Assembly (NCBI GenBank): GCA_029242935.1
Contig: JAQWSX010000029.1
Span: forward strand, 1-37,747
Reading direction: 5' to 3'
Source of the DNA: Akkermansiaceae bacterium
GTDB lineage: Bacteria; Verrucomicrobiota; Verrucomicrobiia; Verrucomicrobiales; Akkermansiaceae
DNA: 37,747 nucleotides
The stretch's first letter is position 1. Each line of letters begins with the position of its first letter. The position numbers and the translations under genes are program-made. This document shows, piece after piece, positions 11,225-24,706 of this stretch. The notes under the pieces are model-generated. The model had not been told where the DNA came from. It was given only the letters and a program-made list of their open reading frames with translations, and ran no database searches.

Positions 11225-12202
11225 ATGTTAACTTGGAACGATATTGTTAAATTTGCCACGGACGGAAATCCTGAGCCCGATTGTGAGGTTCGGAAGTCGG
11301 AAGACGAATGGCGCGAGCAACTTGCGCCGGAGCAATTTCACGTCACTCGGAAACATGGAACCGAACGGGCCTTTAGCTCCGGGATGTGTGATTTATTTGA
11401 GCCGGGTAAGTATGCCTGTGTTTGTTGTGACACCTTATTATTTGATGCTGATGAGAAGTTTGACAGTGGGACAGGTTGGCCCTCTTTTACGCAACCTGCG
11501 AAGGAAAACGCGATCTCCTATCATGGAGATAACACGATGGGAATGACGCGGGTCGAAACTCTGTGCAATGCCTGTGATGCTCATCTCGGACATGTTTTTC
11601 CTGATGGTCCGGCGCCGAGTGGTCTTCGTTACTGCATGAATGCAGTCGCTCTCAAAAAGGTGGAGGGGACCGATGCGGTCGCCACTTTTGGTGGTGGGTG
11701 CTACTGGTGTACGGAGGCTGTTTTTCGGAGTGTGAAAGGCGTGAGCGGGGTTCAGAGTGGATTTAGTGACGGCGAGGCAGCTGGCCCGACTTACAAAGAA
11801 GTTTGCACCGGAGAAACGGGCTACGCCGAAGTCGTTCAGATTAATTATGATCCTAAAGTGGTGAGCTATGAGGAACTTTTGCGTATTCATATGGGAACCC
11901 ACGACCCGACTACGCTAAATGCTCAGGGTGCTGATATCGGAACCCAATACCGCAGTATCATTCTTTACCGGAGCGATGAGGAACGGCAGATCGCTGAGAA
12001 TCTTTTGGAGGAGATTTCCGATACCTTTGAATCTGACATTGTCACAGAGGTGAAGAATTTTGATGAATTTTATCCTGCTCCCGAAGCTCACGATGATTAT
12101 TACAATCGCAATCCGGACCAAGGATATTGTCAGGTAGTGATCTCTCCTAAGATAGCCAAATTCCGAAGGACTTTCCAATACCTCCTATCTCCCGACGAGT
12201 GA
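11225..12202 (+). CDS. msrAB: Bifunctional peptide methionine sulfoxide reductase MsrB-MsrA
   Basis: 325 residues, no signal peptide. The N-terminal MsrB domain (about 25-145) has zinc cysteines in CVCC (C65, C68) and CNAC (C114, C117), SGTGWPSF, HLGHVFPDGP, and the catalytic Cys 137 in RYCMN. The C-terminal MsrA domain (about 152-320) has the catalytic Cys 159 in GGGCYWC, then GDIGTQYRS-like ADIGTQYRS and a HDPTT motif. It reduces both R- and S-methionine sulfoxide in proteins using thioredoxin. The order B then A is the opposite of the classical A-B fusions. The stop is TGA. It fits the redox-repair theme with SelO and the thioredoxin-like gene nearby. Confidence 0.96.
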   Translation: MLTWNDIVKFATDGNPEPDCEVRKSEDEWREQLAPEQFHVTRKHGTERAFSSGMCDLFEPGKYACVCCDTLLFDADEKFDSGTGWPSFTQPAKENAISYHGDNTMGMTRVETLCNACDAHLGHVFPDGPAPSGLRYCMNAVALKKVEGTDAVATFGGGCYWCTEAVFRSVKGVSGVQSGFSDGEAAGPTYKEVCTGETGYAEVVQINYDPKVVSYEELLRIHMGTHDPTTLNAQGADIGTQYRSIILYRSDEERQIAENLLEEISDTFESDIVTEVKNFDEFYPAPEAHDDYYNRNPDQGYCQVVISPKIAKFRRTFQYLLSPDE

Positions 12203-13896: not shown

Positions 13897-15054
13897 ATGA
13901 AAAATTTGGTTCAGATAACGTTGATCGGTTTAGCCGTTCTGGGAGCTCGCGCGGATGAGGTTGTGGTGAAGGAAATCATACCCTCAAAAGCAGAGTCGAC
14001 ATGGCTTGAAATCGATTGGAAGACTGATCTTTGGGAGGCTCGGAAAGAGGCCGCTCGGACGGGTAAGCCTATTTATCTCTGGGAGATGGACGGGCATCCG
14101 CTGGGCTGTGTTTGAAACAACGGAGTGGCCGACAGGTTGTTGGTCTTTGCAAATGAAGAGGTGCAGAATCTTCTCAAGGAGAAGTTTGTTACGATAGCTG
14201 CTGATGATTGGTATCAGCGGCGGCGAAAGGATAAAGTGGGGGAGTATTTTGCTAAGGTGGTGGATCAAAGTCCACGGAAGGGTGTTCACACCAAGCAAGG
14301 GCATTACATTTTTACGGCGACCGGAAAGTTGCTTGGTTTTAATAACAATCGAGGACCTGAAAAACGGTTGGCGATGATGAAGGATGCCCTTTCAAAGTGG
14401 GACAAGCTTCCCAAGGAAGAGAGGACGGTCGAAATTCCGGAGCATGGGAAGAACGATCAGGGATTTTATCGTGAGTTACCCAAAGGGGGGCAGATTGTAA
14501 AAGTTTACACCCGGTGTTTGGAGGAAAGAAATGGGCGGTTGCAAAAGCTTGCTGAGAATAAGATAGGAAATTTATCAGCGGTGGATCACCTCTGGTTGCA
14601 GCATTTGGAAATGAAGAAACTAGGGAATCTGATCGCCTCGGGTGGCGGAAAGATTTCGAACGTGCTTTCTCTTCGAATCGCGAAGTTCCATCTTCGTGAC
14701 AATACGAGGGGAGAACCTCGTGATTGGAAAAAGAATGAGATTAAAGAATGGTCATTGAAGGTCGATGGAAAAGGAAAAGTGAGTGGGAACTTTCTTATCA
14801 GCTCGTCTGATGGGAAAATGGGCTATCAGGGGAAGATCGAGGGGGAGCTTTCGGTGAAGAAGGGGCGTTTGAGCAAGTTCGAATTTTTGGTGCTTGGAAA
14901 GCATTGGGGGCATAGCAAATACACTCGGGGTGCCCGGTCTGGCAAGACCCCGATGGGGCAGGTCTTCCGCTTGTCGGATGGCAAGAGAGCGAGTGACCGG
15001 ATTCCTCCGCAAGGGATTCGGTGGGCGCCGGGATATTGGAATCCGGAGAGTTAG
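13897..15054 (+). CDS. Exported thioredoxin-like protein with in-frame TGA; probable selenoprotein (C-x-U)
   Basis: Read as one frame, 385 residues with TGA at codon 73. The ATG at 13897 gives a signal peptide (MKNLVQITLIGLAVLGARAD). Residues 46-72 (WEARKEAARTGKPIYLWEMDG then HPLGCV) resemble the start of a thioredoxin-like domain, and the TGA falls two residues after C71, giving Cys-Val-Sec followed by NNGVADR. The frame then stays open for 312 more codons with protein-like sequence: a QGHYIFTATGKLLGF strand pair typical of such folds (about 135-150), and a beta-rich C-terminal domain (about 255-375). A hairpin matching the bacterial SECIS pattern follows the TGA. A GTG at 14125 could only make a fragment lacking signal peptide and redox site. 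Alternatives are a nonsense mutation or sequencing error. No sel genes are in the window. Confidence 0.75.
14113..14145 (+). promoter_or_regulatory. Candidate bacterial SECIS: recoded TGA plus hairpin with GGU loop
   Basis: TGA is at 14113-14115. Bases 14127-14134 (GGCCGACA) pair with 14138-14145 (TGTTGGTC) over 8 continuous pairs, of which two are G-T wobbles, closing a three-base loop GGT at 14135-14137. Below it, after a T-T mismatch, G14125-T47 and A14124-T48 extend the stem. There are 19 bases between the TGA and the loop, and the loop begins with two Gs. This agrees with the published bacterial SECIS layout (loop roughly 16-37 nt after the UGA, a G in the first two loop positions). The local CAGGT resembles the apical CAGGU of E. 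coli fdhF. A competing stem, AACAAC 14116-14121 with GTTGTT 14136-14141, also exists. Confidence 0.7.
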
Positions 15055-19785: not shown

Positions 19786-19892
19786 GCATCCTTCGAGGTT
19801 CGTGAGATTGGTGGCGATGGATTAAACCCCCAAGCAGAGCTACCGAAGTAAAAGCCTTCGCTTTGTCGTGACCGACCGTTAAGGTGCCTGTC

Positions 19893-21527
19893 ATGCGGAT
19901 CGTTTCTTTTATACTGCTGTTGTTCAGCAGTGGTCTTTTTGGAAAGTTGACGATCAGCTGGAAGGAGAACTTTTTGAGGATTAGTGACGACCGGAATCCG
20001 GGAGGGGCACTTGAGGTTTGGTATCTTGAGGCCTACTGCCGTTCGGGATCGACTGACCGGGACTGGAATGAGACTGTTATCGATCATGAGACCAAGCTCC
20101 TTTCTGCGACTGAAACCGAAATTCAATTGAGGTGCCAACTAGCCGATGGCGTGATCATTGATCATCTAATCACAGCGGAGGGAGATAAGGTTTCATTTCA
20201 TCTTATTGCTAAGAACCCCACCGGTCAGAAATCTGAGGTTCATTGGGGTCAACCTTGTATTCGGGTCGGACAGTTTACGGGAACCCATAATGATGTAAAC
20301 AAGTATGCCTACCTGAAGAACTCATTTGTGTTTCTCGACGATAAGAAATCCTTCATGCCAACTGGTAATTGGGCGACAAGTGCACGCTATGTGCCGGGCC
20401 AAGTTTGGTGTCCTTGTCACGTTCCAGAGACGGATGTCAATCCGCGCCCGCTTTCAATGGACCGACCCTCAAATGGATTGATTGGTTGCATCTCCGCCGA
20501 CAAGAAATGGTTAATGGCTACGGCTTGGGATCCCTATCAGGAGCTTTTTCAAGGAGTGATTCGTTGTTTGCATTCGGACTTTCGGATTGGTGGTTTGGAA
20601 GCGGGTGAAGAGAAGGTAATTCGGGGTGCCATTTATGTAATGGCCAATGACGCTTCGGCGCTCATAAACCGATATGAAGAGGATTTTCCAGATCAGGTTC
20701 GGCGTCACCGAACTCTCAGTGCCCCCAAGGTGATTGCGGGGAATCTAGTTCCGGGAAAACGCGTCTCGATCACTATTCCTGACTATTCTGGGACGGACGT
20801 CCACCATACCCTCTATCTTCCAGGGAACTGGAATCCGAATTGGAAGGAAGCAAAGAAGAGCTACCCGTTAATCGTGGAATATTCCGGGAATCGGGCGCCC
20901 TCGCTTGGCTCCAGTGGGCGGGTTGAGGATTCGGTTTTGGGGTATGGCTTAAGTAGTGGCGAGGCTGTTTGGCTGAATCTGCCATTTGTGGATGCGAAAG
21001 GTCAGGTGAACCAGCCTAACTGGTGGGGCGATGAAGTCGCAACAGTGGCTTACGCCAAGAAGGTTGTTCCGAAAATTATCGCAGAGTATGGAATCGATCC
21101 TGATCGCGTGATTCTTTGTGGGTTTTCGCGTGGAGCGATTGCCGTAAACTATATCGGCTTGCATGATGATGAGATCGCAGCTTTGTGGTCGGGCTTCGTG
21201 ACGCACGACCATTACGATGGGGTGATAGAATGGCGGGGCACGAAGTGGGGAGCTCCGCTTGCGAGTTATCGGGAGGCTGCTGCCGAAAGATTTAAAAGAA
21301 TCAATGGGAGACCAGTTTTGGTCTGCCAGAATGGTGGAACTAGCGAGATTCGCAAAGTGATTGGCTCACCGGATAACGTTTCTTTTTTGGATGTTGATAC
21401 AAGAGCGATTTTTGGAACCTACCCCACAGAAACAAGGATTCATCCTCACACTGATCGCTGGCTTTTGAAGCCGAGTGCTCAGCGTAATAAAGTTTTAGAC
21501 TGGATGAAAAAGTGTCGCTTTTTTTAG
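19893..21527 (+). CDS. Exported alpha/beta hydrolase with N-terminal beta domain
   Basis: 544 residues from the ATG at 19893, which has AAGG 8 nt upstream; a GTG at 19884 is possible. A signal peptide (MRIVSFILLLFSSGLFG) is followed by about 260 residues of beta-rich sequence, then an alpha/beta hydrolase (about 285-540). The nucleophile elbow is CGFSRGAIA (Ser 412), and the HPHTDRW segment near the C-terminus probably carries the catalytic His. The VHHTLYLPGNWNP strand pattern before the core is typical of exported esterases. The substrate is unknown; the context suggests a carbohydrate or sulfated-glycan esterase. It is convergent with the downstream sulfatase. Confidence 0.8.
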   Translation: MRIVSFILLLFSSGLFGKLTISWKENFLRISDDRNPGGALEVWYLEAYCRSGSTDRDWNETVIDHETKLLSATETEIQLRCQLADGVIIDHLITAEGDKVSFHLIAKNPTGQKSEVHWGQPCIRVGQFTGTHNDVNKYAYLKNSFVFLDDKKSFMPTGNWATSARYVPGQVWCPCHVPETDVNPRPLSMDRPSNGLIGCISADKKWLMATAWDPYQELFQGVIRCLHSDFRIGGLEAGEEKVIRGAIYVMANDASALINRYEEDFPDQVRRHRTLSAPKVIAGNLVPGKRVSITIPDYSGTDVHHTLYLPGNWNPNWKEAKKSYPLIVEYSGNRAPSLGSSGRVEDSVLGYGLSSGEAVWLNLPFVDAKGQVNQPNWWGDEVATVAYAKKVVPKIIAEYGIDPDRVILCGFSRGAIAVNYIGLHDDEIAALWSGFVTHDHYDGVIEWRGTKWGAPLASYREAAAERFKRINGRPVLVCQNGGTSEIRKVIGSPDNVSFLDVDTRAIFGTYPTETRIHPHTDRWLLKPSAQRNKVLDWMKKCRFF

Positions 21528-23308: not shown

Positions 23309-24706
23309 TTAGGTTCCGCAGAAAGTATTGCAGACGACCTCCTCTGGTGCAGGAGTTTGCTGCAGTTTTTCGAAGCCTTCCTGCTCGTTGTAAGGATTTT
23401 TAAGCGCCTTATGGAGCTCATGGAAAGGAGCGAAGTTGTCTTGTTTGGCGGCTGCGATCACTTCTTCGATCCGATGGTTGCGGGGAATATAAACTGGATT
23501 CATGACCTTCATGAGAGAGGTTTCTGGTGTTCCCGCCGCATTCCATCTTGCCAGCCAATCTCGGGCTGGTGCCTCGTCTTCAAAATTGAAGAGGAAGGAA
23601 TCGGGGCTGTTGCTAAGGCTGCGAAAGGTGAGGGTGAAGTCGGTTTTCTGGGAAGCCATAAGGTCAAGCAAGGCCTGAATGAGTTCGGGATCATGGTTTT
23701 GGGAAAGTCCGATTTTTTTTGAGAAGATTTTAAGGTGAGCTTCATCAAAAAGATGGGGAAATTTTTCCAGCTCACCTTTTGCCATGGTGACCGCTTTTTC
23801 CTGATCCTCATCAAAGAGTGGGAGGAGGGACTCGGCGAGGCGGGTTAAATTCCATTGAGCGATACCAGGTTGGTTGGAATAAGCGTAGCGACCATTTTGG
23901 TCGATAGAGCTAAATTTTTGCGTGGGATTAAATCGGTCCATGAAAGCGCAAGGACCGTAGTCGATAGTTTCGCCTGAAAGGCTCATGTTGTCGGTGTTCA
24001 TGACTCCGTGAATGAAGCCGATTCCCATCCAGTGAGCGACAAGTTGGGCCTGTTTGCTAATGATACTTTGAAAGAGTTCGAAGGCGTTTGATGTCTGTGG
24101 GTCGTGGCGCTGGATGGCGTAATTGACGAGTGATTTCAGGCTTTCGATGTCGTTTTGGGCGGCGAAATATTGCGCGGTGCCGATTCGAAGGTGGGAGCTG
24201 GCAACTCTGGTGAAAATCCCACCTTGTTCGGGTTGTTCGCGAAGGACTAATTCTCCGCTCAGAACTGCGGCGAGAGCGCGGGTTGTGGGAATGCCCAATG
24301 CGTGCATCGCTTCCGAGACGAGATATTCCCGAAGGACAGGTCCGAGAGCGGACCGACCATCGCCACGACGGGAAAAGGGAGTGGGACCAGCGCCTTTGAG
24401 CTGGATATCCTTCCCTCCGATTTCTCCAAGTAGAATGGCCCGACCGTCACCGAGCTGCGGAGAGAATCCTCCAAATTGGTGGCCGGCATAAGCCATGGCA
24501 AGAGGCTCGGCTCCCTCGGGAATCGAATTGCCAGCAAGAATGGCGAGCCCTTCGTCGGTGGCAAGAAAATCGGGATCAATTCCAAGTTCTTTTGCTAGCC
24601 CATCGTTCACCGCGATGATGGAAGGTTGAATGACCGGAGTGGGTTCGACTTTTTCAAAGAAGCTCTGGGGAAGCCGGGCAAAGGTGTTTTGGAAGTTGAG
24701 CTTCAT
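23309..24706 (-). CDS. selO: SelO protein adenylyltransferase (YdiU/UPF0061), Cys-ending form
   Basis: 465 residues, close to the usual length of about 480. Hallmarks are YAGHQFGGFSPQLGDGRA (74-89), the ATP-lysine strand IQLKGAGPTPFSRRGDGR (101-118), VASSHLRIGTAQYF, and NTDNMSLSGETIDYGPCAFMD. SelO is a pseudokinase that transfers AMP to protein Ser/Thr/Tyr and is linked to the oxidative-stress response. The C-terminus ends CNTFCGT: Cys 463 stands third from the end, where eukaryotic SelO carries selenocysteine. It lies between two sulfatase genes on the same strand, an odd housekeeping insertion in a degradation cluster. Confidence 0.97.
   Translation of the reverse strand: MKLNFQNTFARLPQSFFEKVEPTPVIQPSIIAVNDGLAKELGIDPDFLATDEGLAILAGNSIPEGAEPLAMAYAGHQFGGFSPQLGDGRAILLGEIGGKDIQLKGAGPTPFSRRGDGRSALGPVLREYLVSEAMHALGIPTTRALAAVLSGELVLREQPEQGGIFTRVASSHLRIGTAQYFAAQNDIESLKSLVNYAIQRHDPQTSNAFELFQSIISKQAQLVAHWMGIGFIHGVMNTDNMSLSGETIDYGPCAFMDRFNPTQKFSSIDQNGRYAYSNQPGIAQWNLTRLAESLLPLFDEDQEKAVTMAKGELEKFPHLFDEAHLKIFSKKIGLSQNHDPELIQALLDLMASQKTDFTLTFRSLSNSPDSFLFNFEDEAPARDWLARWNAAGTPETSLMKVMNPVYIPRNHRIEEVIAAAKQDNFAPFHELHKALKNPYNEQEGFEKLQQTPAPEEVVCNTFCGT

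Follow-up and report, generated by a model that had tools for sequence, protein, structure and literature searches.

A candidate selenocysteine-only family of exported thioredoxin-like proteins in Akkermansiaceae

Introduction

Iodothyronine deiodinases, with the motif SCTU, carry a Cys-Thr-Sec string in a thioredoxin-like (Trx-like) fold, and mammalian thioredoxin reductase, a flavoenzyme, carries a vicinal Cys-Sec pair in the GCUG of its flexible C-terminal tail. The catalogued Trx-like selenoproteins VPGUxxT (NF041382/NF041383), Trx7/PDZ (NF041199) and GOS_C combine a Trx-like domain and a selenocysteine (Sec) at the redox site with a bacterial SECIS element (bSECIS). Published bSECIS rules include a hairpin 16-37 nt downstream, a G in the first two loop bases and a folding energy of -7.5 kcal/mol or lower (PMC13188914 Fig. 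2A). Selenoproteins are reported from Planctomycetes (PMC4807772), and our literature search returned no relevant paper on selenoproteins of Akkermansiaceae or Verrucomicrobia.

Here we analyzed a 37,747-nt stretch of DNA from an Akkermansiaceae bacterium (contig JAQWSX010000029.1 of assembly GCA_029242935.1), hereafter the window, in which a preliminary description based on the letters alone had proposed a new selenoprotein. We consider it highly probable that the locus encodes an exported, two-domain Trx-like selenoprotein, which on the best reading belongs to a new Sec-only family of likely thiol oxidoreductases. Its features are the following:

13897-15054, + strand: putative selenoprotein gene, 385 residues, Sec at codon 73, TAG stop at 15052-15054
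13897-13956, + strand: probable signal peptide MKNLVQITLIGLAVLGARAD, by sequence reading, with hydrophobic N-termini in relatives too
14002-14412, + strand: Trx-like domain, residues about 36-172, from the AlphaFold model, VIA-align matches and a subthreshold Thioredoxin_7 match
14107-14109, + strand: Cys71, proposed resolving partner (C-V-U), with a Cys at -2 in 35 homologues
14113-14115, + strand: UGA codon, predicted selenocysteine 73, present in 58 of 58 covering homologous frames and aligned with the first Cys of CxxC
14116-14124, + strand: NNG after Sec, with Gly76 at the place that the second CxxC Cys takes in Cys relatives
14127-14145, + strand: SECIS-like hairpin of the bacterial type, with 8 bp and a GGU loop at 14135-14137
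14491-14976, + strand: C-terminal domain rich in beta structure, residues about 199-360, perhaps a barrel, without a clear relative among known domains

Results

Conservation of the UGA codon

The 385-residue frame at 13897-15051 (+) ends in a TAG stop at 15052-15054 and is interrupted once, as initially described, by the TGA at 14113-14115, which is codon 73 (not 72) and lies in the motif HPLGCV-U-NNG; the frame holds no other internal stop. TGA is the normal stop of 4 of the 20 genes in the window, so the standard genetic code applies, as had been concluded. The N-terminus (MKNLVQITLIGLAVLGARADE), read from the sequence with no predictor, resembles a signal peptide, and relatives also have hydrophobic N-termini. 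These observations support the export proposed for the protein, which is very probable.

Homologues were searched for in 195 Akkermansiaceae genomes. The window protein retrieved them from 44 genomes, nearly all with one internal TGA, and in the frames that were read out the TGA fell in the same alignment column throughout. A profile (A1) was built from 41 members, with 19-90% identity to the window protein and with W, P, G, the Sec position, R and G as invariant positions. Searching the 195 genomes with this profile, down to ~19% protein identity, we found TGA at this codon in 58 of 58 covering homologous frames, which come from about 42 genomes. Two strong matches lack the TGA (G089:C141 and G126:C81), and both begin downstream of the codon. 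The dN/dS ratio 3' of the TGA is 0.05-0.21 (ten pairs), which indicates that the downstream part is translated. Conservation of the TGA goes far beyond chance, unlike the hairpin taken alone, and because all 58 relatives share the codon, the window gene almost certainly encodes a selenoprotein with Sec at position 73.

The host assembly is a fragmented draft (219 contigs, 85.5% complete, 4.5% contamination), as would suit a pseudogene, a sequencing error or an assembly artefact. Against these stand the same TGA in 58 frames of about 42 genomes, the purifying selection 3' of it and a frame with no other stop. The conservation of the TGA already refutes such an origin, to which we assign a negligible probability, and the earlier argument against a decayed pseudogene holds.

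Searches of plasmids and of viral contigs yielded no homologues. In a phylum-wide search, full-length TGA homologues were found only inside Akkermansiaceae, and the remaining matches whose sequences we inspected are Thioredoxin_7 proteins of the CxxC type. The genomes searched yielded no Cys ortholog that shares the two-domain layout.

Selenium machinery and the SECIS-like hairpin

A search for the sel genes, suggested at the outset, was successful in large part. The host genome encodes SelA, SelB and SelD, and its SelD (L112, G000:C149:64935-65861), whose frame likewise contains a TGA, in the motif SCGGU-ASKLG, is itself a predicted UGA-encoded selenoprotein. The tRNA-Sec was not found in the 85.5%-complete host assembly, where a 1.1-kb query across a relative's tRNA-Sec locus also gave no match; four close relatives do have a tRNA-Sec with a TCA anticodon (ARAGORN). 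At its usual threshold, the tRNA-Sec search flags almost every genome, and each of the 14 controls as well; because this threshold does not discriminate, strong matches alone were used. SelB was detected in 41 of the 43 genomes that carry TGA homologues and in 27 of the 152 others (p about 2e-21), and the two SelB-negative carriers, G091 and G140, are 80-86% complete and both have SelA.

Folding confirmed the reported hairpin at 14127-14145 (ggccgaca/ggt/tgttggtc). With its 8 bp, its GGU loop starting 19 nt after the UGA and its energy of -8.4 kcal/mol, it agrees with all four published bSECIS rules (PMC13188914). In isolation it is mildly unusual (z -1.2), as equal stability occurs in 2.5% of synonymous recodings and at 0.9% of random codon positions. 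Covariation was analyzed in 34 homologues of group A over the stem at columns 15-21/27-33, where the UGA takes positions 1-3. Pairing reached 94.9% versus 84.9% in shuffles, the covariation score was 0.371 versus 0.211, and there were 17 double-change cells versus 5.4; none of 500 shuffles matched the pairing, the double changes or the covariation, a result to be read as supportive rather than as a p-value since the shuffles ignore relatedness. In slid registers, at most 54% of the stem is paired. One pair stands out, columns 18-30, where the window clade has C-G and a sister genus G-C. The group B hairpin lies further downstream (columns 30-34/39-43), with a weak covariation that is statistically weak alone, and groups C and E have yet other hairpins. 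No qualifying hairpin was found in L054 and L056, and those of several homologues are weaker than -7.5 kcal/mol. By conservation and covariation, the hairpin at 14127-14145 probably guides Sec insertion.

A frame conserved on either side of the TGA is also what any productive read-through would give, and the UGA might be passed without selenium, by near-cognate suppression or leaky termination, yielding a short and a long product. Such read-through does not predict the co-occurrence with SelB, a covarying hairpin at bSECIS spacing or a codon that coincides precisely with the catalytic Cys of relatives bearing CxxC, and we regard it as very improbable. Selenocysteine insertion, as first claimed, is supported by SelA, SelB and SelD in the genome, by the covarying hairpin and by the TGA in 58 of 58 frames.

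Fold and active site

An AlphaFold model built from eight sequences (mean pLDDT 67.7) has a Trx-like domain at residues about 36-172. VIA-align matched this moderate-confidence model to 3f9u with a Z of 12.7 (rmsd 2.3, 117 residues), followed by ERp19 (Z 11.3), AGR3 (Z 11.3) and DsbH (Z 9.7); AGR2 and AGR3 are among the top fold matches. The model is least sure at residues 66-78, the active site included, where pLDDT is <50, so the geometry of this loop is not usable. Plain Foldseek with the full model gave no match with E <0.001, and the C-terminal domain alone (about 199-360) gave Z scores of at most 5.7 to various beta-barrels, with no clear match.

A profile alignment with ordinary Thioredoxin_7 proteins, which are remote relatives, puts Sec opposite the first Cys of WCxxC and the UNNG Gly opposite the second; a weak PDB profile match to 3f9u gives the same placement of Sec on the first Cys. 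With Sec in place of the nucleophilic Cys that opens CxxC and a Gly in place of the other Cys, the site reads as UxxG with a relocated partner Cys, a refinement of the CxU redox site of the preliminary description, which is otherwise supported. Of 57 sequences, 35 have the near-Sec Cys at -2, 10 at -4, 8 at -1 and 2 at +3, and 2 have none, one of which is L052 and the other L063, on an N-rich contig. The -4 group and the -1 group each form a coherent branch of the tree. L022 and L047 have no Cys other than the -2 one between a point 60 residues ahead of Sec and the C-terminus. Some group A members read GCTU, and groups C and E have a vicinal Cys-Sec (NCU, FCU).

Further branches were seen beside these. 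Group E (L114, L133, L134 and L135) is a UGA Trx-like branch that reads FCUANG and differs in its C-terminal part, and L114 has no Pfam or NCBIfam match. Another branch was seen once, in L132 (G109:C164; NLGRCUGGAFAMR). A remote paralog in the host genome, L073 (G000:C164:20349-20588), has a single Cys (TGSPGSPMCARL), which falls in the Sec column of the alignment, and is conserved in close relatives. Group B members of the window's genus (L125, 7440-9095, and L128) carry an additional domain of roughly 180 residues at the N-terminus, for which Pfam gave no match.

The near-Sec Cys bears on the type of chemistry. The loss of the second CxxC Cys (UNNG), the presence of AGR3 and AGR2 among the best fold matches and the lack of any Cys near Sec in L052 would all suit a genuine selenoprotein with a single nucleophile, similar to peroxidases, deiodinases or AGR proteins, in which the nearby Cys is incidental or structural. 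Such an enzyme is possible but unlikely in our judgment, as 55 of the 57 sequences keep the near-Sec Cys, at one fixed offset per clade, and group D retains a UxxC motif (UGAC). We lean toward Cys71 as the resolving residue and regard the window protein as a likely thiol/selenol oxidoreductase.

Family status and genomic context

The window protein scores 14.9 bits against Thioredoxin_7 (PF13899), where the cut-off is 27; no Pfam family is above its cut-off, and NCBIfam gives no match up to E 5. Among 41 members, no NCBIfam cut-off was reached (E 0.04 or worse), and two further members had no match. Iodothyronine deiodinase (PF00837) is not among the Pfam matches of the 41 members up to E 1, a list from which weak matches may be filtered out. 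The 2026 prokaryotic selenoprotein inventory (PMC13188914) has no matching entry and no CxUNNG, nor is there a matching entry in the accessible portion of the GOS selenoprotein table (PMC2398784). The claim that the protein belongs to no described family is thus borne out in Pfam, NCBIfam and PMC13188914, with the refinement that the window family appears as one branch of a larger all-Sec superfamily, a placement supported by the sequence comparisons. On the best reading, these proteins are exported Trx-like thiol oxidoreductases that form a new, Sec-only family, judged against Pfam, NCBIfam, PMC13188914 and the portion of PMC2398784 available; other public records may already contain members.

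The genes on both sides of the selenoprotein gene lie on the opposite strand, which makes a single-gene unit probable. Nearby genes encode an MsrB-MsrA fusion, an ABC-F-type ATPase, SelO and sulfatases, and the closest relatives keep the gene order around the selenoprotein gene. The MsrB-MsrA fusion, a methionine sulfoxide reductase (11225-12202, ~1.7 kb upstream) that is also kept in the closest relatives, is a possible functional neighbor. SelO (23309-24706) was considered as a second selenoprotein of the window and rejected, as it ends in VVCNTFCGT followed by TAA and is the Cys form, within a genome equipped with the Sec machinery. A 547-residue frame at 19884-21527 has no Pfam match at E 0.001. 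Elsewhere, the host genome encodes a DsbD-like membrane protein, a possible electron donor.

Discussion

Comparison with described systems places the window protein near known families and apart from each of them. It shares the Trx-like fold over ~117 residues with Thioredoxin_7/DsbD-gamma (PF13899), ERp19 and AGR proteins (3f9u, 1sen and 3ph9; Z 11-13), whose first CxxC Cys aligns with its Sec, and differs in having UNNG for CxxC, Sec for Cys and an added C-terminal beta domain. The catalogued VPGUxxT, Trx7/PDZ and GOS_C selenoproteins likewise have a Trx-like domain, a redox-site Sec and a bSECIS; however, no aligned member of the window family reaches an NCBIfam cut-off (best E 0.04-0.08 to these models), and their motif and C-terminal domain are different. 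The Cys-Thr-Sec string of the deiodinases recurs in the GCTU members of group A as a resemblance only, as the window family has other flanks and a second domain, and none of its 41 members showed a Pfam deiodinase match. As in mammalian thioredoxin reductase, Cys and Sec are vicinal in groups C and E, but here the pair is the active site of a Trx-like domain, whereas there it sits on a flexible tail.

In the mechanism we propose, SelB with Sec-tRNA would read the UGA at 14113-14115 as selenocysteine, directed by the hairpin at 14127-14145. The signal peptide would export the protein, which would fold into a Thioredoxin_7/DsbD-gamma-like domain with a beta-rich domain C-terminal to it. Sec73 would occupy the place of the nucleophilic first Cys of CxxC, and its selenolate may attack an oxidized substrate outside the cytoplasm, possibly a disulfide, a peroxide or a sulfoxide. 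Cys71 would then resolve the intermediate as a Cys71-Sec73 selenenylsulfide, and the enzyme would be reset by an electron donor, for which the DsbD-like protein of the genome is a candidate. Sister clades retain the same Sec, with the presumed partner Cys at -4, -1 or +3.

For the superfamily as a whole, we give about even chances to a broader reading: a Trx-like scaffold that lost the second CxxC Cys, carries Sec without exception, repeatedly re-placed its resolving Cys (-4, -2, -1, +3), has SECIS hairpins whose place differs between branches and has no surviving Cys ortholog, from which it follows that its chemistry may need selenium.

A selenoprotein family without a close Cys counterpart would be easily overlooked and would probably be annotated as two broken open reading frames. 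The present family would add a set of exported selenium enzymes to Akkermansiaceae, for which we found no selenoprotein paper. Its clades would form a natural series for asking why Sec resists replacement by Cys and over what range a resolving Cys may shift around one active site.
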